This document shows, one piece after another, positions 51,560 through 61,423 of a DNA stretch of 64,000 bases. Position numbers and translations under genes: made by a program. Where the stretch lies: assembly GCF_041346945.1 (NCBI RefSeq), contig NZ_CP166850.1:4092001-4156000 (forward strand), in the 5' to 3' direction. The stretch is from Amycolatopsis sp. cg9. Its GTDB lineage: Bacteria > Actinomycetota > Actinomycetes > Mycobacteriales > Pseudonocardiaceae. The number at the start of each line of letters is the position of its first letter. The first letter of the stretch is position 1. A model generated the notes under the pieces. The model saw nothing but the letters and a program-made list of their open reading frames with translations, made no database searches and had not been told where the DNA came from.

Positions 51560-52528
51560 ATGTTCGATCCGGCCGACTTTCCCGCACCCACCCTGGTCCC
51601 CGTCAACGGTGTGGAACTCGAGGTCTTCGAAGCCGGCCGGGAGAACGCCGGAAAGCCCATCGTGCTCTGTCACGGCTGGCCGGAGCACGCCTTTTCCTGG
51701 CGCCACCAGGTGCCGGCGCTGGCCGCGGCGGGCTACCACGTCATCGTCCCGAACCAGCGGGGCTACGGCGGCTCGTCCCGTCCTGCCGAAGTGACGGACT
51801 ACGACATCGAGCACCTGTCGGGTGACCTCGTCGCGCTCCTCGACCACTACGGCTACGCGGACGCCACCTTCGTCGGTCACGACTGGGGCGCATTCGTCGT
51901 CTGGGGCCTGACCTTGCTGCACCCGAACCGGGTGAACGGCGTGGCCGCGCTGAGCCTGCCCTACCAGGAGCGCGGGGAGCTGCCCTGGATCGAGTCCATG
52001 GAGGCCGTGCTCGGCGCCGACTTCTACTTCGTCCACTTCAACCGGCAGCCGGGGGTCGCGGACGCCGTGCTCGACGAGCACACGGCCCAGTTCCTGTGCA
52101 ACGTCTTCCGGAAGAACCAGCCCCCGGGACCGCCTCGGCCGGGGATGGCGATGATCGAACTCGCGAGGGCGGCGACACCCCTCGGCGAGCCCGTCATGAG
52201 CGACCGCGAACTGGCCGTCTTCGTCTCCGCCTTCGAGTCGACGGGCTTCACGGGCAGTATCGACTGGTACCGGAACCTCGACCGCAACTGGCGTCTGCTG
52301 GCCGGCGTGGACCCGGTCATCCGGCAGCCCGCACTCATGATCTACGGCGACCGTGACACGATCCCGAGGTCCGGACGACTGACGGAGTTCGTGCCCGGCG
52401 TGGAAGTGGTCGGCCTGGACTGCGGTCACTGGATCCAGCAGGAAAAGCCGGACGAAACGAACCAGGCGATCCTGGCGTGGCTGGCTCGGCGGGCTGCCGT
52501 CGGAAGCGTGCCCGGGGCCGGAGCCTAG
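51560..52528 (+). CDS. Alpha/beta hydrolase, epoxide-hydrolase-like
   Basis: 322 residues from ATG 51560 with GAGGAAA upstream. Oxyanion H-G-W-P-E, nucleophile Asp108 in G-H-D-W-G-A (Asp, not Ser, so epoxide hydrolase or dehalogenase type), cap region with W-Y-R-N-L-D-R-N-W Tyr, and late H of D-C-G-H-W-I-Q-Q-E-K-P. The Asp nucleophile and cap Tyr fit an epoxide hydrolase. Regulated probably by the divergent WYL protein. Its stop overlaps the convergent PPOX gene by 4 bp. Confidence 0.88.
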   Translation: MFDPADFPAPTLVPVNGVELEVFEAGRENAGKPIVLCHGWPEHAFSWRHQVPALAAAGYHVIVPNQRGYGGSSRPAEVTDYDIEHLSGDLVALLDHYGYADATFVGHDWGAFVVWGLTLLHPNRVNGVAALSLPYQERGELPWIESMEAVLGADFYFVHFNRQPGVADAVLDEHTAQFLCNVFRKNQPPGPPRPGMAMIELARAATPLGEPVMSDRELAVFVSAFESTGFTGSIDWYRNLDRNWRLLAGVDPVIRQPALMIYGDRDTIPRSGRLTEFVPGVEVVGLDCGHWIQQEKPDETNQAILAWLARRAAVGSVPGAGA

Positions 52529-52917
52529 GCGTTGCCGAGGATCCGGTTCACCGCGATCTCCAGGACCACCCGCTGCGGGTTCGGCTTGGGCTGGCGATAG
52601 CGCGCCGCGTACCGGTTCTCGGCGTCCCGGACCGACTCCGGGTCGTCGCGCAGCACCGCGCGACCCTCCAAAGTGGACCACTTCGGTCCCTCCAGCTGGC
52701 AGACCGCGACAGGGACGCCGTCGGCGCCCGCGGCCCGGATCATCCTGGCCTTGACCGACGAAGCGAACGTGATCACGCGGGCGAGCCCGGCGTCGAAGTC
52801 CACGGTCACGCCGACCGCGACGACGTGCGGGGTGCCGTCGGGCCGGACCGTCGTCAGGGTGGCCAGGCGGCGCTCGGTCCAGAAGGCGCGGAAGTCCGCG
52901 CCGCGGTCGATCTTCAT
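52525..52917 (-). CDS. PPOX-class F420/FMN-dependent protein
   Basis: 130 residues from ATG 52917, leaderless with TAGCGT 7 nt upstream. The split-barrel pattern (R-L-A-T-L-T-T-V-R-P-D-G-T-P-H-V-V, V-C-Q-L-E-G-P-K-W-S-T-L-E-G-R-A) is that of pyridoxamine-5-phosphate-oxidase-like proteins, here likely F420-dependent. Substrate unknown. It is convergent with the hydrolase. Confidence 0.85.
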   Translation of the reverse strand: MKIDRGADFRAFWTERRLATLTTVRPDGTPHVVAVGVTVDFDAGLARVITFASSVKARMIRAAGADGVPVAVCQLEGPKWSTLEGRAVLRDDPESVRDAENRYAARYRQPKPNPQRVVLEIAVNRILGNA

Positions 52918-52924
52918 GGGGTCC

Positions 52925-52930
52925 ACGCTA
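52925..52930 (-). promoter_or_regulatory. -10 element of leaderless PPOX transcript
   Basis: TAGCGT on the minus strand, 7 nt from the ATG, as in the LLM oxidoreductase gene. Confidence 0.45.
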
Positions 52931-52977
52931 GTCCGTCCGGGTGGCCCGGGTCGCGGTGAGACCACTCACGGTCATAG

Positions 52978-54291: not shown

Positions 54292-54334
54292 GAGGGGCAC
54301 CTTCGTGGCTGTGAAAGCCATGAAGGTGCCCCTC
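54292..54334. terminator. Long hairpin between convergent GH8 and Gfo/Idh genes
   Basis: Left arm 54292-54310 (begins GAGGGGCACCTTC) and right arm 54315-54334 pair over 19 bp with one G-T. The loop is GTGA. It overlaps the stop of the minus-strand gene by 2 bp and suits bidirectional termination. No T-tract. Confidence 0.6.
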
Positions 54335-55325
54335 ACGGCGTTCGGCTCGGTTCGCGCGGCGAGAGCCCGGCGGCGCGGTAGATCTCGTCGATCACGGTCA
54401 TCGTCGCCACCGCGTCGGCCGCCGAGGTCTTCACCGGCTCGCCGCGCAGGACCGCCGCCGCGAACGCGTCCAGCTGGTAGGCGTACGACGCCCGGCGCGG
54501 GAACTTCTCCGTGCGCCGCGACTCGCCGACCCGCACCGAGAAGCGGTGGAAGGCCTGGGGGGCCACCGGGTTCAGCACCGAGAGCGACCCCTTCGAACCG
54601 ATCACCTTGGCGCTGATCTTCAAGAGGGACGACGACCACAGCGAGCACGTCACCCGGCCCGTGTGGCCCGACGGATAACGCACCTCGGCCGTCATCGCCC
54701 GGTCGACCCGAGGTGACCGCAGCTTCGCCGAAGCCGAAACGACCGACGGCGTCTCGCCGCCGAGCGTCCGGGCCAGGTGGACCGCGTAGCAGCCCGCGTC
54801 CATCGTCGCCCCGCCCGCGAGGTCGTAGTCGTAGCGGATGTCCGAGAACTTCGGCAGCGGGAAGCACACCGCCGTCTCCACGCGCTCGAGCGCGCCCAGC
54901 TCGCCCGACGTGATGATCTCCTCGGCCCGCAGTGCCAGCGGGTGGTAGCGGTAGTGGAACGCCTCCATCACGACGTGGTCCGAGGTCGCCGCCAGGTCGC
55001 TGATCTCCCGCGCCTCCGCCGCGTTGGCCGTGAACGGCTTCTCGCACAGCACGTGCTTCCCGGCGGCCAGCGCGGCCCGCGTCCACCGGCCGTGCAGGCC
55101 GTTCGGCAGCGGGTTGTAGACGGCGTCGACGTCCGGGTCGGCGAGCAGCGCCTCGTAGGACGGGTGCGCCTGCGGGATGCCGTGGCGATCCGCAAACGTT
55201 TGCGCGCGATCCAGCGACCGTGCGGCGACCGCGACGACGTCGACTTCGGAGCTGGAGGAAGCGGGCTTGACCAGGGCGGTGGGGGCGATGCGCGCCGCAC
55301 CCAGGACGCCGATCCGCAGGCTCAT
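54333..55325 (-). CDS. Gfo/Idh/MocA family oxidoreductase
   Basis: 330 residues. Rossmann start L-R-I-G-V-L-G-A-A-R-I-A, the family's E-K-P motif (V-L-C-E-K-P-F), and the G-A-T-M-D-A-G-C-Y-A-V-H catalytic stretch with Asp and His are all present. It oxidises or reduces a sugar or polyol with NAD(P). It is leaderless (TAGCTT, 6 nt). It is divergent from the ABC importer, and its promoter is close to that importer's tandem operators. Confidence 0.9.
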   Translation of the reverse strand: MSLRIGVLGAARIAPTALVKPASSSSEVDVVAVAARSLDRAQTFADRHGIPQAHPSYEALLADPDVDAVYNPLPNGLHGRWTRAALAAGKHVLCEKPFTANAAEAREISDLAATSDHVVMEAFHYRYHPLALRAEEIITSGELGALERVETAVCFPLPKFSDIRYDYDLAGGATMDAGCYAVHLARTLGGETPSVVSASAKLRSPRVDRAMTAEVRYPSGHTGRVTCSLWSSSLLKISAKVIGSKGSLSVLNPVAPQAFHRFSVRVGESRRTEKFPRRASYAYQLDAFAAAVLRGEPVKTSAADAVATMTVIDEIYRAAGLSPREPSRTP

Positions 55326-55337: not shown

Positions 55338-55352
55338 GCACCGGACAAGATT

Positions 55353-55392
55353 TCAACAGCCAGTTGACCTCTTCAACAACGAGTTGTACCGT
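55353..55392 (+). promoter_or_regulatory. Promoter with two tandem inverted-repeat operators
   Basis: TTGACC (55364-55369), 17-nt spacer, TACCGT (55387-55392). Two 15-bp sites of the form TCAAC-N5-GTTGA sit at 55353-55367 and 55373-55387, exactly 20 bp apart, so on one helix face, one over the -35 and one in the spacer. Consensus TCAACA(G/A)C(C/G)AGTTG. The fused regulator at 57991 is the likely binder. Confidence 0.75.
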
Positions 55393-55421: not shown

Positions 55422-56369
55422 ATGTCCCGTTCACGCGCCGCACAGGCGGTGTTGCTCGCGAGCCTGGCCGTCCTGGTGACCGCCTGCGGTGGTGGCCCGG
55501 ACGGCGCGGGCGGGACGTCGCAAGCGGCCGGCGCGCCCGCGTCCGGCATCCCGGACACGGCCGCGATCGTCCAGGGCGTGCAGAAGGACGCCCAGCTCAA
55601 CGCCGCCCTGCCGGACAACGTCAAGCAGGCGGGCCTGCACCTGGCGTCGAACCTGCAGTCCGCGCCCAACAACTTCTACGCCGCCGACGGCAAGACCCCC
55701 ATCGGCTACGAGGTCGACCTCGCCAAGGCGATCGCCGCCAAGCTCGGCGTCCCGGTGGCCCACCAGGACATGGCGTTCGGCTCGCTCATCACCAGCCTCC
55801 AGTCCGGCCGCATCGACCTGACCATGGCCGGCATGAACGACACCAAGGCCCGCCAGGCGCAGATCGACTTCGTCGACTACTTCACCTCGGGCATCACGAT
55901 CATGATCCGCAAGGGCAACCCGGACGGCATCACCGGCCCGGACACCCTGTGCGGCAAGAACGTCGCCGTCGTGCAGGGCACCAGCCACCAGAAGTTCGCC
56001 GAAGCGCAGAGCACCAAGTGCACGCAGGCGGGGAAGCCCGCGGTGAACGTCACCGCGACCGACAGCGACAACCAGAACCAGAACCAGCTGCGCACCGGTC
56101 GCGTCGCCGCGATCCTCAACGACCTGCCCAGCGCCGTCTACATCTCGCGCACCGCGGGCGAGGGCAAGTTCTTCGAGGTCGTCCCAGGTGAGCCGATCGA
56201 AGGCGGGCCGTACGGCATCGGCGTCAACAAGGCGAACACAGTGCTGCGCGACTCCGTGCAGAAGGCGCTGCAGGCCCTGATCGCCGACGGCACCTACGGC
56301 AAGATCCTGCAGGCCTGGGGCGTCGAACAGGGCGCGATCAAGGAGGCCGCGGTCAATGGCGGCTCCTGA
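55422..56369 (+). CDS. ABC transporter substrate-binding lipoprotein (amino-acid type)
   Basis: 315 residues with lipobox V-T-A-C. It is a family 3 (His/Glu-type) binding protein: G-Y-E-V-D-L-A-K-A-I-A-A-K-L-G, S-L-I-T-S-L-Q-S-G-R-I-D-L-T-M-A-G-M-N-D-T and Q-G-T-S-H-Q are the ligand-contact landmarks, with Asp/Arg contacts as for polar amino acids. First gene of the importer; overlaps the permease by 14 nt. Confidence 0.92.
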   Translation: MSRSRAAQAVLLASLAVLVTACGGGPDGAGGTSQAAGAPASGIPDTAAIVQGVQKDAQLNAALPDNVKQAGLHLASNLQSAPNNFYAADGKTPIGYEVDLAKAIAAKLGVPVAHQDMAFGSLITSLQSGRIDLTMAGMNDTKARQAQIDFVDYFTSGITIMIRKGNPDGITGPDTLCGKNVAVVQGTSHQKFAEAQSTKCTQAGKPAVNVTATDSDNQNQNQLRTGRVAAILNDLPSAVYISRTAGEGKFFEVVPGEPIEGGPYGIGVNKANTVLRDSVQKALQALIADGTYGKILQAWGVEQGAIKEAAVNGGS

Positions 56370-57234
56370 GCCAATCCCGATCGTCCGGCTCCGCCACTGG
56401 GGCCGGTGGGTCGCCGCCGCGATCATCCTGGCGCTGCTCGTGCTGCTGGGCGTCGCGCTCGGCAACGCGCAGATCGAGTGGCACCAGGTCCCGGACTTCG
56501 TGTTCTACAAGGTGATGGCGACCGGCCTGCTCAACACCGTCGTGCTGGCGGTGCTGTCCCAGGCCGTCGCGATCGTGCTCGGCATCGTCATCGCCCTGCT
56601 GCGCCGCAGCGCCAACCCGGTCGCGCGGTGGTTCGCCGCCGGGTACATCTGGATCTTCCGCGGGCTTCCGGTGCTGCTGCAGATCCTGCTCTGGTACAAC
56701 CTGGCGCTCGTCTTCCCGGTGATCGACATCCCGTTCCTGGTCCACGAGCAGACGAACGTGCTGATCAGCGCGTTCACCGCCGCGTTCCTCGGCCTCGCGC
56801 TCAACGAGAGCGCGTACATGGCCGAGATCGTCCGGGCCGGGCTGAACAGCGTCGACAGCGGGCAGACCGAGGCGGCGAAGTCGATCGGCATGACGCCGGC
56901 CGCGACGCTGCGCCGGGTCGTGCTGCCGCAGGCGATGCGCGTGATCATCCCGCCGACCGGCAACGACTTCATCAACATGCTCAAGGGCACGTCGATGGCG
57001 TCGGTGATCGGCGTGACCGAGCTGATCCACGCGGCCAACAACATCTCGTCCAACAACCTGCTGGTCATGGAAACGCTGCTGGCCGCGGCCGTCTGGTACA
57101 TGGTGGTCGTGACCGTCGCCGGCGTCGGCCAGCACTACCTGGAGCGCTCGTTCGGGCAGGCCGACCGCGGGCCGCTCGCCCGCGCGGGCAAGGCGTTGCG
57201 CGGCGTGCCGCTGGTGAGGAGTGCCCGTGTCTGA
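56356..57234 (+). CDS. Polar amino-acid ABC permease (HisMQ type)
   Basis: 292 residues from ATG 56356. Several membrane segments and the HisM/Q EAA loop (E-A-A-K-S-I-G-M-T-P-A-A-T-L-R-R-V-V-L-P) with R-G-L-P-V-L-L-Q-I-L-L-W. An N-terminal extension of one extra membrane segment is typical of Gram-positive versions. It acts as a homodimer with the ATPase that follows. Confidence 0.93.
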   Translation: MAAPEPIPIVRLRHWGRWVAAAIILALLVLLGVALGNAQIEWHQVPDFVFYKVMATGLLNTVVLAVLSQAVAIVLGIVIALLRRSANPVARWFAAGYIWIFRGLPVLLQILLWYNLALVFPVIDIPFLVHEQTNVLISAFTAAFLGLALNESAYMAEIVRAGLNSVDSGQTEAAKSIGMTPAATLRRVVLPQAMRVIIPPTGNDFINMLKGTSMASVIGVTELIHAANNISSNNLLVMETLLAAAVWYMVVVTVAGVGQHYLERSFGQADRGPLARAGKALRGVPLVRSARV

Positions 57235-57994
57235 GCCGCTGCTGCGCGCCGTCGGCGTCCGGAAGTCCTACGGCCACACCGAAGTCCTCGGCGGCATCGA
57301 CCTCGAAGTCCGCAAGGGGCAGGTCGTCTGCCTGCTCGGCCCGTCCGGCGCCGGGAAGAGCACGTTCCTGCGCTGCATCAACCACCTGGAGACGATCGAC
57401 GCCGGCCAGATCTGGGTCGACGGCGAGCCGATCGGCTTCCGCCAGCGCGGCGGCAAGCTGTACGAACTGCGCGAACGCGACGTCGCCCGGCAGCGCCGGG
57501 ACATCGGCATGGTGTTCCAGCGGTTCAACCTCTTCGCCCACCGGACCGCGCTGGAGAACGTCGTCGAGGGCCCGATCCGGGTGCTCGGCCTGAAGCCCGA
57601 AGACGCGCGGAAGCAGGGGCTCGAGCTGCTCGACCGGGTCGGGCTCGCGCACCGCGCCGGCGCGTACCCGGCGCAGCTGTCCGGCGGGCAGCAGCAGCGC
57701 GTGGCGATCGCGCGGTCGCTGGCGATGAAGCCGAAGCTGATGCTGTTCGACGAGCCGACGTCGGCACTGGACCCGGAGCTGGTCGGGGAGGTGCTCGAAG
57801 TGATGAGTACGTTGGCGGGGGAGGGGATGACGATGGTCGTCGTGACGCACGAGATGAGCTTCGCCGCGGAGGCCGCCGACGAGGTGGTGTTCCTGGCCGA
57901 CGGCGCCGTCGTCGAGACCGGGCCGCCGTCGGAGGTGCTGAGCGCGCCGAAGCACGAGCGGACCCGGCAGTTCCTGGCGAGGATCCTCGCGTGA
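57227..57994 (+). CDS. Amino-acid ABC transporter ATP-binding protein
   Basis: 255 residues from GTG 57227 with GAGGA upstream; an in-frame GTG at 57221 adds two residues. Walker A G-P-S-G-A-G-K-S-T, signature L-S-G-G-Q-Q-Q-R, Walker B L-M-L-F-D-E-P-T-S-A-L-D-P-E and switch His in V-T-H-E-M-S are complete. It overlaps the permease by 8 nt and the fused enzyme by GTGA. Confidence 0.95.
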   Translation: MSEPLLRAVGVRKSYGHTEVLGGIDLEVRKGQVVCLLGPSGAGKSTFLRCINHLETIDAGQIWVDGEPIGFRQRGGKLYELRERDVARQRRDIGMVFQRFNLFAHRTALENVVEGPIRVLGLKPEDARKQGLELLDRVGLAHRAGAYPAQLSGGQQQRVAIARSLAMKPKLMLFDEPTSALDPELVGEVLEVMSTLAGEGMTMVVVTHEMSFAAEAADEVVFLADGAVVETGPPSEVLSAPKHERTRQFLARILA

Positions 57995-59709
57995 CGCGGA
58001 TTTCGCCCCGGTACCTGCTGCAGTTCGACGAGCCCGCCGGGTACCTCGACTTCGCCCGGTTCGGCCCGCCGTCGCACGCGGTGCTCGACACGACGGCCGC
58101 CCTGCTCGACCAGGCCACCACGGCCGGCCCGTCCACTGTGGACGAATTGATGCGGCAGGAGGTCCGGGCCAAGGCCGCCGCGGCGCGGCTGTCCGGTTCG
58201 GACACCGACCACACCGTGCTGCTGCCGCACACGAGTCTCGGGTTGTTCCAGGCCGCGTTCCACAGCTCCGGCGAGGTCCTGGTGTCGGCGGCGGAGTTCC
58301 CCGCCAACACCTACCCGTGGGCCCGCGCCGAACAGGCGGGGCGCCTCACGCTGCGGCGCCTGACCGGCGGTTACGTCACCCCCGAGCGGGTCGCCGAAGC
58401 GCTGACGCCGGAGATCACCACGGTGAGCGTCAGCGCGGTCGACTTCCGCACCGGCTTCCGCGCCGACCTGGCCGCGCTGCGCGACGTCGTCGGTGACCGG
58501 CTGCTGGTCGTCGACGGCATCCAGGGCTTCGGCGTGATCGAGGCGCCCTGGGAGGTCGCGGACGTGCTGGTCGTCGGCGGGCAGAAGTGGCTGCGCGCGG
58601 GCTGGGGCACCGGCTTCGCGGTGCTGTCCGACAACGCGCTGGAGCGGATGGACCCGGTGCTGTCGGGCTGGACCGGCGCGCGCGACCCCGGCCTGTTCGA
58701 CGACGAGATCCACGCGCCGGACGCCACCGCGCAGGCCTGGTCGATCTCGAACCTCAGCCCGATCACGTCCGGGGCGTTCGCCGAGGCGCTCGAGCTCGTC
58801 GAGGACGCCGGGGTGCCCGCCATCGCGGCGCGGATCGCCGAGCGGATCGGATCGTTCGAGGAGGTGCTGGCCTCGTGCGGCGCCGAAGTGGTGTCCGCGG
58901 TGGACCGGCGGGCGGGGATCCTGGCGTTCACGCTGCCCGGCCACCCCGCCGAGCAGGTCGGCGCGGCACTGGCCAACGCCGGGATCGCGGCGACCGTGCG
59001 GCCCGAGCACGTCCGCCTGTCGCCGCACGCGTCGACCCCGGCGGCCGCGGCGGACCTGCTGCGTTCGGCGTTGGAGACGTTGACCGCGCCGCGTGAGCCG
59101 CTGGTCGTCCCGGCCGCGGGCGCGACCACGCACGAGGTGCTCACCGCGCTGGTCCCGGCGATCCCGGGACTCGCGGCGATGCTGGGGCCGGGCAACGAGG
59201 TGCTGCTGCACGACCTGAGCCGGCTGCCGGACTCGATCGTCGCCATCGCCGGCGACCTGACCGGCCGCAGCGTCGGCGGGCCGATGACCGACCTGCTGCT
59301 CGGGCTGGTCCGCCGCGGCACCACGCAGGACCTGACGAACTACCGCACGCACGGCCCGGACGGCCGCCCGATCCGCTCGTCGACGCTGTTCCTGCGCGAC
59401 GCCGACGGGGTGGCGGTCGGCTGCCTGTGCGTCAACAGCGTCGACGCGTCGGCCTCGGCCGGCGGCAACGGCGAGCCGGAGACTTTCCCACCGGACGTGG
59501 ACAGCCTGCAGCGGTTCCTCGTCGACCGGGCGGTCACCAAGGCCGGCATCCCGGTGGACCTGATGAAGAAGCGGCACAAGGCCGCGGTGGTCCGTGAACT
59601 CGACGAGGCCGGTTATTTCCTCATCAAGGACGCGGTCGACCACCTGGCCGGGCGGCTCGACGTCACGCGCTACACGATCTACAACTACCTCAACGAAATC
59701 CGGGCTTGA
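57991..59709 (+). CDS. Class V aminotransferase fused to a YheO/DauR-type regulator
   Basis: 572 residues. The N-terminal two-thirds are a PLP fold-type I class V aminotransferase/kynureninase-like enzyme with Schiff-base Lys199 (V-V-G-G-Q-K-W-L-R-A-G) and D-G-I-Q-G-F Asp. From about 395 a YheO PAS-like domain follows (L-L-H-D-L-S-R-L-P-D-S-I...T-R/G-P-D-G-R-P-I-R-S-S-T-L-F), then a DauR-type helix-turn-helix (about 515-572, ending T-R-Y-T-I-Y-N-Y-L-N). Enzyme and transcription factor in one chain, last in an amino-acid import operon, suggests a substrate-sensing autoregulator. DauR controls D-arginine catabolism in Pseudomonas; by analogy D- or beta-amino acids are candidates. Confidence 0.85.
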   Translation: MTRISPRYLLQFDEPAGYLDFARFGPPSHAVLDTTAALLDQATTAGPSTVDELMRQEVRAKAAAARLSGSDTDHTVLLPHTSLGLFQAAFHSSGEVLVSAAEFPANTYPWARAEQAGRLTLRRLTGGYVTPERVAEALTPEITTVSVSAVDFRTGFRADLAALRDVVGDRLLVVDGIQGFGVIEAPWEVADVLVVGGQKWLRAGWGTGFAVLSDNALERMDPVLSGWTGARDPGLFDDEIHAPDATAQAWSISNLSPITSGAFAEALELVEDAGVPAIAARIAERIGSFEEVLASCGAEVVSAVDRRAGILAFTLPGHPAEQVGAALANAGIAATVRPEHVRLSPHASTPAAAADLLRSALETLTAPREPLVVPAAGATTHEVLTALVPAIPGLAAMLGPGNEVLLHDLSRLPDSIVAIAGDLTGRSVGGPMTDLLLGLVRRGTTQDLTNYRTHGPDGRPIRSSTLFLRDADGVAVGCLCVNSVDASASAGGNGEPETFPPDVDSLQRFLVDRAVTKAGIPVDLMKKRHKAAVVRELDEAGYFLIKDAVDHLAGRLDVTRYTIYNYLNEIRA

Positions 59710-59727: not shown

Positions 59728-59756
59728 TTGATTCCGGCGTTCCCCGGGCGCACCAT
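59728..59756 (+). promoter_or_regulatory. Candidate leaderless promoter of the EACC1 gene
   Basis: TTGATT (59728-59733), 17-nt spacer, CACCAT (59751-59756), then 7 nt to ATG 59764. The geometry supports that start over ATG 59755, which would overlap the -10. Confidence 0.45.
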
Positions 59757-59763
59757 GGCGCGC

Positions 59764-60141
59764 ATGACCGAACCGGACACCCGGGCGCTGGTGCGGCTCG
59801 AGGCGGAGGGCGGAGCCGACGAGGAGGAACTCGACCGGCTCGCCCGCCGGCTGCGCGCCGAGCTGGGCGAGCTGGACGTGGACCTGCTGGCCGCGCCCGG
59901 CGAGCTCCCGCCGGGCGCGAAAGCCGCGGACCCGGTGACGATCGGCTCCCTGGTGGTGGCGTTCAGCGCGGCCGGCGGCGTGTTCCCGGGGTTGGTGGAG
60001 ACGCTGAAGGAGTGGCTGGCCCGGCAGGCGGGCAAGCACCGGATCAAGGTGACGATCGACGGGGACACGGTCGAGCTGGAGCGGGCGACGTCGGCGGAGC
60101 GGCAGGAGCTGATCGAGGCCTTCGTCCGGCGCCATGCCTAG
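59764..60141 (+). CDS. Effector-associated constant component EACC1
   Basis: 125 residues from ATG 59764. Acidic N-terminus (E-E-L-D-R-L-A-R-R-L-R-A-E-L), then a hydrophobic helix (T-I-G-S-L-V-V-A-F-S-A-A-G-G-V-F-P-G) and basic strands (H-R-I-K-V-T-I-D-G-D-T-V-E-L). This is the EACC1 pattern, the invariant partner in actinobacterial conflict operons that also encode a variable effector and a sensor or iSTAND. Here the only partner is the overlapping propeller gene (8-bp overlap); no effector is in reach. Confidence 0.72.
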   Translation: MTEPDTRALVRLEAEGGADEEELDRLARRLRAELGELDVDLLAAPGELPPGAKAADPVTIGSLVVAFSAAGGVFPGLVETLKEWLARQAGKHRIKVTIDGDTVELERATSAERQELIEAFVRRHA

Positions 60142-61423
60142 CGGGGCCGACTTGACCAGTGCCGACCCGGCGGGAAAGCCCGACGACGTCGCGTCGAACT
60201 CGGTATCCGGAGACGTCGCGGGTGTTGTCGTCCAGGCAGGCACCGTCTGGGGCGATGTCACCGTGAACCTCGCCGGCGAAGACTCGCGGCTACGTCCGGC
60301 GAAGAAGGTCACCACGTTCTCGTACGGTTCCGGGCGCGGTGTCCTGCTGAACCACAAGATCACCTCGGCGGTCAGCGGATCCGGACTGCTGGCGACCTCG
60401 AGCACCGACGGGCAGCGCACGCTCTGGAACGGACGGACCGGCCTGCGACTGCATTCCGTCCGGGCGTACACCGACCCCGTGCGCAGGTACGACTTGTCGC
60501 CCGGGATGTCCATCGCGGCAGACGGTTCGTTCTTCGCCTGCGAGGGGCTGCGACGAGGATCAGTAGCTGTTCACGACGCTCGATCGGGCGCCAGGATTCA
60601 CCACCTGGGTGCGATCGGAGATCCCGCCGACAGCGGCATCAGGCGCTTTTTGCACAACTCGCCGGCAGCGAACGACAGAGGGAGCTACTTCGGTCCCGGC
60701 GGTCGAATCGCAGTCACGGTCGAGTTCGGAAAGTGGCGGGTCTGGAGACTTGCCGACGGCAGGGAGCTGTGGTCCGGCGGGCGCGATCCGGTCAGTGGTG
60801 TCACCATCAGCTCCGACGACAGCTTCCTGGTGGCGACCGGCCTGAACTACTGCAAAGACGACCAGGGCTGCTACGAAGTGCAGGTCGTGGCGGACATCGA
60901 TCGCCCGGTCGGCAGTGCGGCGATTCGCACCTTCACCATCCTGCGCGGAGAGAATGAGAGCACGTGCCGAGTCTCCTTCGCGCTGAGTGGAGACGACTCG
61001 TTGCTCGCCATCTCCACCACATCCGGCGTCTTCGTCCACGACCCGCTCACCGGCGCCTTGGTGACTGTCGTGGACAGTGGCACTCACATCGAAAGCACTG
61101 TCCCCCCGGTGAAGTTCTGCGGAGACAGGGTCCTGAGCATCGAGTTCTCGTGGGGGTGGCAATTGTGGGATCTGGAGTCGGGTAGCCGAATCATGGAGCT
61201 GCGCAGCTTCTCCCACGCCTTCGCCGCGTCGGCTGATGGTGCTCTCGTCGCCGCCTACGACGAGCAAAACCGGGATGTGGGCTTGTGGGACACCTCGAGC
61301 GGCCGGATCGTCGAGCGCGTTCCCGCTGACGGTGTGCGTGGCTTGTTGTTCTGTGAAGGCGGGCAGCTGCTGATCTACGGCACCAAGAACCGGGCCGAGA
61401 TGTGGCAGGTCCAAGGCAGCTGA
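60134..61423 (+). CDS. Beta-propeller (WD40-like) protein with N-terminal SGxVxGxVVQAG motif
   Basis: 429 residues. An N-terminal S-G-D-V-A-G-V-V-V-Q-A-G motif, seen at the front of many actinobacterial conflict-system proteins, is followed by blades with WD-type ends (R-T-L-W-N-G, W-R-V-W-R-L, W-Q-L-W-D-L, V-G-L-W-D-T) giving about seven. No enzyme motif, no signal peptide. Its place after EACC1 suggests the sensor or adaptor of the pair. Confidence 0.75.
   Translation: MPSGADLTSADPAGKPDDVASNSVSGDVAGVVVQAGTVWGDVTVNLAGEDSRLRPAKKVTTFSYGSGRGVLLNHKITSAVSGSGLLATSSTDGQRTLWNGRTGLRLHSVRAYTDPVRRYDLSPGMSIAADGSFFACEGLRRGSVAVHDARSGARIHHLGAIGDPADSGIRRFLHNSPAANDRGSYFGPGGRIAVTVEFGKWRVWRLADGRELWSGGRDPVSGVTISSDDSFLVATGLNYCKDDQGCYEVQVVADIDRPVGSAAIRTFTILRGENESTCRVSFALSGDDSLLAISTTSGVFVHDPLTGALVTVVDSGTHIESTVPPVKFCGDRVLSIEFSWGWQLWDLESGSRIMELRSFSHAFAASADGALVAAYDEQNRDVGLWDTSSGRIVERVPADGVRGLLFCEGGQLLIYGTKNRAEMWQVQGS

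Follow-up and report, generated by a model that had tools for sequence, protein, structure and literature searches.

A class V PLP enzyme fused to a YheO-like regulator, and a tandem operator through which it may control its own amino-acid importer operon

The 64,000-nucleotide stretch of the Amycolatopsis sp. cg9 genome analyzed here (NZ_CP166850.1, positions 4,092,001–4,156,000; hereafter the window, with positions counted from its first letter) encodes an unusual fusion protein at 57991–59709 on the forward strand. In this protein of 572 residues with a GTG start, a class V pyridoxal phosphate (PLP)-dependent enzyme is followed by a YheO-like PAS_6 domain and a helix-turn-helix (HTH) DNA-binding domain, HTH_22. 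Our analysis suggests, with a probability that we put at roughly 0.7, that the fusion is both an enzyme and the repressor of its own operon, relieved by an imported amino compound or product. Judged from sequence, autorepression through a tandem operator upstream of the operon is very likely; participation of the enzyme domain in sensing is a more tentative proposal.

Fusion protein and importer operon

All three parts of the fusion are recognized by Pfam models well above their curated cut-offs. Aminotran_5 (PF00266) matches residues 87–335 with 74.0 bits (cut-off 21.5), PAS_6 (PF08348) residues 384–483 with 93.3 bits (cut-off 27) and HTH_22 (PF13309) residues 510–568 with 71.6 bits (cut-off 29.6). 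The enzyme domain as a whole spans residues 1–368 (57991–59094), has a SufS-like fold and includes Lys 199 (codon 58585–58587); the PAS_6 and HTH_22 domains are encoded at 59140–59439 and 59518–59694, in the order typical of YheO/DauR regulators. A structural model suggests a PAS fold for the PAS_6 part, and no sequence relative of the PAS_6–HTH_22 part was found among solved chains at E-values up to 1. An earlier note, made from the sequence alone, had read the protein as a class V enzyme with Lys 199 continuing into a YheO PAS region and a DauR-type HTH, and had named PF08348 and PF13309 as the models to look for in the C-terminus; the three matches bear this reading out.

Assignment to class V is based on the PF00266 score together with the PLP-site Lys, Asp and Gln. 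The PLP-site residues K199, D175, Q178, F103, R337, R342 and H346 are kept in all 93 rows of the enzyme-domain alignment, fused and unfused alike. This invariance makes it probable that every row has an active enzyme part, and catalytic activity of the window's own enzyme domain appears likely. The term "aminotransferase" is here a fold-class name. The existing automatic annotation reads "selenocysteine lyase/cysteine desulfurase/predicted transcriptional regulator YheO", and we considered cysteine desulfurase (SufS) as an identity. It was rejected, as TIGR01979 gives 36.7 bits against a cut-off of 475.1 and, by an ungapped count from Arg 337, the invariant Arg 342 would fall at about the position of the SufS Cys.

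The same three-domain architecture is present in the best 120 of 1138 protein matches. Moreover, all 80 retrieved named loci (the best 80 of 231 relatives from the genome scan) encode the enzyme, PAS and HTH parts, so that a chance or assembly join can be rejected. According to record titles, these loci come from Amycolatopsis, Nocardia, Mycolicibacterium/Mycobacterium, Herbihabitans, Pseudonocardia, Umezawaea, Saccharothrix, Kibdelosporangium, Lentzea and Actinosynnema, with a single record titled Rhodococcus. Among the protein matches, an ortholog from M. smegmatis (P0068) is 78% identical. A relative, fused or unfused, was found at E 1e-60 or better in 85 of 249 genomes spread over the family. 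The layout had been called uncommon, which holds for the design of an enzyme fused to a regulator; it is not a one-off, being conserved as a family across relatives.

The fusion is the last gene of a forward-strand operon whose adjoining gene ends overlap. It is preceded by genes for an SBP_bac_3 solute-binding protein (SBP; 55422–56369), a BPD_transp_1 permease of the polar amino-acid type (56356–57234; TIGR01726, 68.7 bits against a cut-off of 42.2) and an ABC_tran ATPase (57221–57994; Pfam and family models). An SBP_bac_3 protein, a HEQRo-type permease and an ABC ATPase in a single operon identify a polar amino-acid ABC importer. The four-gene operon is kept in 79 of the 80 named loci, L111 being the exception, and the junction between ATPase and fusion is an overlap in 49 and a gap of 0–2 nt in 30 of these 79. 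Thus, the earlier description of the fusion as the last of four coupled genes in an amino-acid importer operon was correct. We rejected identification with the ectoine importer EhuABCD, since the EhuA equivalog model scores 316.0 bits against a cut-off of 345.4. Similarity of the SBP to StpK7, a kinase of M. smegmatis according to the part of PMC13355554 that names it (152 bits, cut-off 900), was taken to reflect a common solute-binding fold.

Tandem operator and predicted promoter

The earlier note had placed the operator at 55353–55387, and this location proved right. The region contains two CAAC-N5-GTTG dyads, CAACAGCCAGTTG at 55354–55366 (site 1) and CAACAACGAGTTG at 55374–55386 (site 2, 20 bp after site 1). 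They belong to a longer forward-strand element, TTCAAC-N5-GTTGAC...TTCAAC-N5-GTTG-TACCGT (55352–55392), which is matched exactly in the window and conserved in 78 of 79 loci. What the first reading did not include is the interlocking of operator and promoter. The predicted −35 hexamer (TTGACC, 55364–55369) lies within the right arm of site 1 and the predicted −10 hexamer (TACCGT, 55387–55392) directly after site 2, both on the forward strand. Since site 1 covers the −35 hexamer, site 2 fills the spacer and the −10 hexamer follows at once, the geometry would be that of a repressor. In Lentzea-type loci an in-frame ATG lies 13–17 bp past the operator, which would fit a leaderless transcript starting from the predicted −10 hexamer.

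Taken alone, the two dyads of the window are unremarkable, as 9 of 100 shuffles hold two or more. Our claim of an operator therefore rests on conservation and fixed spacing in relatives rather than on the dyad count. Exact single dyads number 129 in the 1.23 Mb of the 80 loci, 105 of them within the 26 kb just upstream of SBP genes. Dyad pairs that deviate by no more than one base in either site and have a period of 20 or 22 bp were found in 73 of 79 loci, against none in 1486 control slices of the same loci. The period is 20 bp in 67 loci and 22 bp in six Mycolicibacterium/Mycobacterium loci. With up to two mismatches in all, plus a rule for the −10 hexamer, the pair is present in 78 of the 79 SBP-bearing named loci. 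Column counts yield TTCAAC-N5-GT(T/G)GACnTCTTCAAC-N5-GTTGTA(G/C)C(G/T)T; TANNNT immediately follows site 2 in 73/73 loci, and T(T/G)GA(C/T) with a 17-bp spacer precedes the −10 hexamer in 68 of 72 period-20 loci.

In its own 10.6 Mb genome, the plain tandem pattern occurs with up to two mismatches only at 55352–55392, where the match is exact; this count tells little, since a reversed-pattern control matched three times per strand. A scan of 80 Amycolatopsis genomes with the 41-base pattern, allowing up to three mismatches, returned a single occurrence in 73 genomes and none in the other seven, while the reversed control had zero occurrences in all 80. These genomes comprise 72 with the full fusion, three with an enzyme-only gene and five without a relative at E 1e-60. 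The single operator is present in all 72 of the first group, in one of the second (G541) and in none of the third. Each of the 73 operators precedes its gene on the same strand, 72 before the fusion and one before the enzyme-only gene. The distance is 2587–2817 bp in 71 cases, which leaves room for three importer genes; the two short distances are 147 bp in G541 and 11 bp in G602.

The operator also tracks the DNA-binding domain. It accompanies HTH_22 in 47/47 rows as scored and is missing in 25 of the 28 rows without HTH_22. For this tally, 42 named loci were entered as operator-bearing, L111 among them by the rule for variants and the others from the dyad-pair results; enzyme-only loci were scored on the 300 bp preceding the enzyme gene and, for Amycolatopsis, across the whole genome as well. 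Moreover, the recognition helix of the fusion, TRYTIYNYLNEIR, resembles the helix TR(Y/F)T(I/V)YNYLN of two standalone PAS_6–HTH_22 regulators (L176 and L177), both of which have an exact CAAC-N5-GTTG dyad upstream.

Several observations weigh against the fusion as the repressor acting at this operator. The second site of L044 is degenerate, so that under the strict rule only 46 of the 47 HTH rows have the operator. Three enzyme-only loci (L142, L150 and L153), all nested in the fused clade, retain the operator. The co-occurrence counts are not independent either, and a tree-based test has only four usable pairs. Finally, no exact dyad was found upstream in 12 of the 14 standalone PAS_6–HTH_22 loci (L001, L011–L013, L031, L176–L181, L183, L184 and L197, the last being the one locus added by a further class-wide search). 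Seven of these 12 have clearly other recognition helices, but five (L178–L181 and L197) have SR(Y/F)TIYNYLN, which differs mainly in SR for TR. Single one-mismatch sites in four of the 12 are probably due to chance. We thus do not regard the dyad as a motif of HTH_22 proteins in general, given that the exact site accompanies only L176 and L177 among the 14 standalone loci. The window's own genome has a second PAS_6 gene (G000:C1:7734549–7734875, minus strand), whose recognition helix differs (SRATVYNYL) and which has no such dyad upstream.

L198 and L199 combine like ingredients in unfused form. In L198 (L198:3300–8678), a standalone regulator gene is preceded by the same dyad and transcribed divergently from the genes of an amino-acid ABC importer (permease, ATPase and SBP). 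A class I/II aminotransferase-type gene (Aminotran_1_2, 129.6 bits) follows the regulator gene after 11 bp, and a class V gene is 3.5 kb off. In L199 (L199:4950–8903), the genes divergent from a regulator with the same dyad upstream encode an amino-acid permease, a D-serine-dehydratase-type PLP enzyme and a RidA-type protein. Unlike in the fusion, regulator and PLP enzyme are encoded separately here, and the PLP enzymes next to the regulators belong to other classes.

Ligand sensing and alternative explanations

In the mechanism we propose, HTH_22 dimers would bind both dyads on one face of the DNA helix, the 20-bp period amounting to about two turns. The bound fusion would hide the region from −35 to −10 and keep importer and enzyme off. 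An imported amino compound or product would then bind the PAS domain and/or form an aldimine with PLP in the enzyme domain. In the ligand-bound fusion the HTH would release the operator, and importer and enzyme would be made until the enzyme has consumed the inducer.

Which domain would sense the ligand can be addressed with natural variants. We built an enzyme-domain tree of 93 rows, comprising 42 of the 80 named loci, 33 variant loci and 18 proteins. Variant loci were drawn from 20 of 21 partial-match genomes (G391 was left out), followed by four and two new ones; a further search contributed the best seven matches to the enzyme, not counting that of the window itself. The tree resulted from a quick search and has several long branches. 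In it, many of the enzyme-only relatives branch outside the fused forms, and the architecture has to change several times. Those enzyme-only relatives that belong to the fused clade or to its nearest neighbors are 61–83% identical, and L142, L150 and L153 appear to have lost the HTH while retaining the enzyme part.

Four fusions, L151, L158, L163 and L164, consist of the enzyme and HTH_22, lacking the PAS domain as well as the importer (architecture called by Pfam for the first three and by tblastn for L164). These four PAS-less loci with known context fall in two parts of the tree, and the PAS-less label, taken over all 12 rows, forces at least four changes on well-supported branches. In all five importer-less loci with an HTH, namely these four and L111, the operator stands directly before the fusion gene. 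Since the PAS-less relatives keep enzyme, HTH and operator, the enzyme domain is a candidate sensor. In these forms it is the only known candidate for ligand binding, as in the MocR-type regulator EnuR. We consider it somewhat less likely than not that the enzyme domain takes part in sensing.

The strongest alternative assigns sensing to the PAS domain alone and nothing but catalysis to the enzyme domain, with the fusion just linking the amounts of enzyme and repressor. We consider this a serious contender, if short of an even chance. The existence of standalone PAS_6–HTH_22 regulators without an enzyme domain means that PAS can suffice as a sensor. Enzyme-only relatives with identical PLP-site residues, in turn, indicate that the enzyme domain has an enzymatic life of its own. 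Moreover, the PAS domain is nearly always retained alongside the importer, which speaks against sensing by the enzyme domain: both are present in 42 rows, neither in 32, and PAS without importer in one, L111. This coupling is best regarded as a trend, because L111 is a counterexample and the tests of independence are too small for significance; on well-supported branches there are three pairs for PAS and importer and four for HTH and operator, none opposite but too few to reach 0.05. On the other hand, PAS cannot be the sensor in L151, L158, L163 and L164, where it is missing although enzyme, HTH and operator are retained. In most family members PAS could nonetheless be the only sensor. The earlier suggestion that the protein senses its own substrate and regulates its own uptake is therefore to be divided: phylogenetic footprinting and the co-occurrence of HTH and operator lend strong support to regulation of uptake, and sensing of the substrate is plausible in view of the PAS-less variants.

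A bolder version of sensing by the enzyme domain, which we put forward with considerable reserve, would mean that PLP-sensing repressors arose twice independently, the fusion being the second case. The active class V enzyme would itself be the sensor, aldimine formation releasing the operator and turnover resetting it. PAS would be a second input tied to the importer and lost with it repeatedly, and its loss would leave a two-domain enzyme–HTH switch.

The enzyme domain might also have become a pure sensor in the manner of MocR/GabR proteins, with no useful turnover. EnuR-type MocR regulators, which sense their inducer through a PLP-Lys domain at the promoter of an importer and catabolic operon in the system described in PMC8739950, offer a precedent. 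Nevertheless, enzyme-only relatives without a DNA-binding part share the PLP-site residues, and L142, L150 and L153 of the fused clade apparently shed the HTH and kept the enzyme part, which makes a pure sensor unlikely.

We also considered whether HTH_22 could be an activator bound in the spacer, as in MerR-type regulation. The position of site 2 within the spacer would agree with this. However, with a spacer of the usual 17 bp and two hexamers that come close to consensus (−35 type in 68/72 loci, −10 in 73/73), the promoter would need no activator; in addition, the −35 hexamer is covered by the other site. Activation is thus very improbable. Least probable of all is that another regulator binds the tandem site while the HTH of the fusion acts elsewhere: retention of the site in three enzyme-only loci would suit this explanation, but it is at odds with the single operator per Amycolatopsis genome, placed before the fusion in 72 of 73 cases, with the near-complete correspondence of operator and HTH, and with the occurrence of this dyad before both standalone regulators that share the helix.

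If repression by the fusion is confirmed, it would constitute a self-resetting metabolic switch in a single polypeptide, a repressor that consumes its inducer and also gates the uptake of that inducer. The variants without PAS, HTH or importer form a ready series for locating the sensing domain. The operator, for its part, gives a direct route to the substrate through ligands that release it. It could also be used as a sensor part, since it is short, has a single copy in each of 73 among the 80 Amycolatopsis genomes searched and is interwoven with a predicted promoter of standard type.

Neighboring genes, substrate hints and known systems

Hints as to the substrate are weak and point in different ways. 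Nearest solved relatives of the SBP are mostly glutamine/arginine-type binding proteins. Its alignment retains an Arg and an Asp, residues that hold the amino-acid head group in proteins of that type. In L199, genes of the D-amino-acid type adjoin the dyad, which faintly suggests D-amino acids. Aminophosphonates are as faintly suggested by L143 (L143:6950–9226), in which the class V enzyme is fused to a zinc dehydrogenase of the phosphonate-catabolism type (TIGR03366 "HpnZ", 373 bits against a cut-off of 328). By sequence, L145 (L145:6929–9223) has the same dehydrogenase extension, the HpnZ model having been applied to L143 only.

Other variants show further arrangements. In L167 (L167:6016–8083 after orientation), from Amycolatopsis, an SBP gene overlaps an enzyme-only gene, with neither HTH nor operator. 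In L152 and L154, where the enzyme relative is without HTH, pairs of exact CAAC-N5-GTTG dyads 28–29 bp apart stand before a separate gene; after orientation, these pairs lie about 780–950 bp ahead of the enzyme gene.

The window also contains neighbors of the operon. An F420-dependent PPOX-class protein is encoded on the minus strand at 52525–52965 (TIGR03618, 83.5 bits against a cut-off of 79.05). Its relatives cluster in 49 of 100 examined loci, at least one more (L151) having been missed by overlap filtering, and in some loci are directly divergent from the SBP gene. As their place and strand vary, we regard this gene as part of the neighborhood rather than of the operon and reject it as a fixed partner. 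A GFO/IDH/MocA oxidoreductase gene (54333–55325, minus strand) is divergent from the operon, and 28 bp separate its start codon from operator site 1. It was likewise rejected as a partner: of the 80 loci, only 13 from the nearest Amycolatopsis group and, with lower identity, L046 have it there. Within that close Amycolatopsis group the oxidoreductase gene may share the operator. Just downstream of the fusion, 59728–60138 (plus strand) encodes a small protein with an EACC1 (Effector Associated Constant Component 1) domain (31.6 bits, cut-off 23.6), and an open reading frame of 429 residues comes next (60134–61423). At a guess, the two are perhaps a pair of the conflict-system type.

The two C-terminal domains of the fusion are those of DauR/YheO regulators, whose standalone representatives seen here differ in having no enzyme domain. 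DauR is a repressor that responds to D/L-arginine. PutA, BirA and NadR are trigger enzymes with a DNA-binding part; like the proposed fusion, they are metabolic enzymes that also repress their own pathway, with unrelated domains and chemistry. Relative to other class V enzymes (SufS/CsdA, C-DES, PvdN and kynureninase), the fusion stands apart in scoring far below desulfurase models. In the literature, DauR appears as the regulator of dauBAR that carries PF08348 and PF13309 (PMC7789669, in the portion concerned with it), and a YheO-like PAS6 is mentioned in passing in a regulator paper (PMC10717218). A fusion of enzyme, PAS_6 and HTH_22 was not found among the matches listed, by title and opening of the abstract, in the open-licence PMC literature.

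The closest parallel is with MocR/GabR regulators (GabR, PdxR, TauR and EnuR), in which a PLP-binding fold type I domain is likewise joined to an HTH. As reported in passages of PMC8739950, EnuR represses an importer and catabolic operon, a PLP-reactive inducer relieves the repression, and a mutant in the PLP-Lys, Lys302His, is a constitutive repressor; MocR operators often consist of repeated boxes (PMC5320631, in the relevant section). The fusion shares the putative PLP Lys, K199 being present in 93/93 rows. However, MocR/GabR proteins have a GntR-type winged HTH before a C-terminal domain of the aspartate aminotransferase type (class I/II), whereas Pfam detects no GntR match in the fusion, and its class V domain (PF00266) is N-terminal, followed by PAS_6 and HTH_22. 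Because enzyme class, HTH type and order all differ, we take the fusion to be of separate origin, and it is a candidate convergent counterpart of MocR/GabR regulators if its enzyme domain senses.

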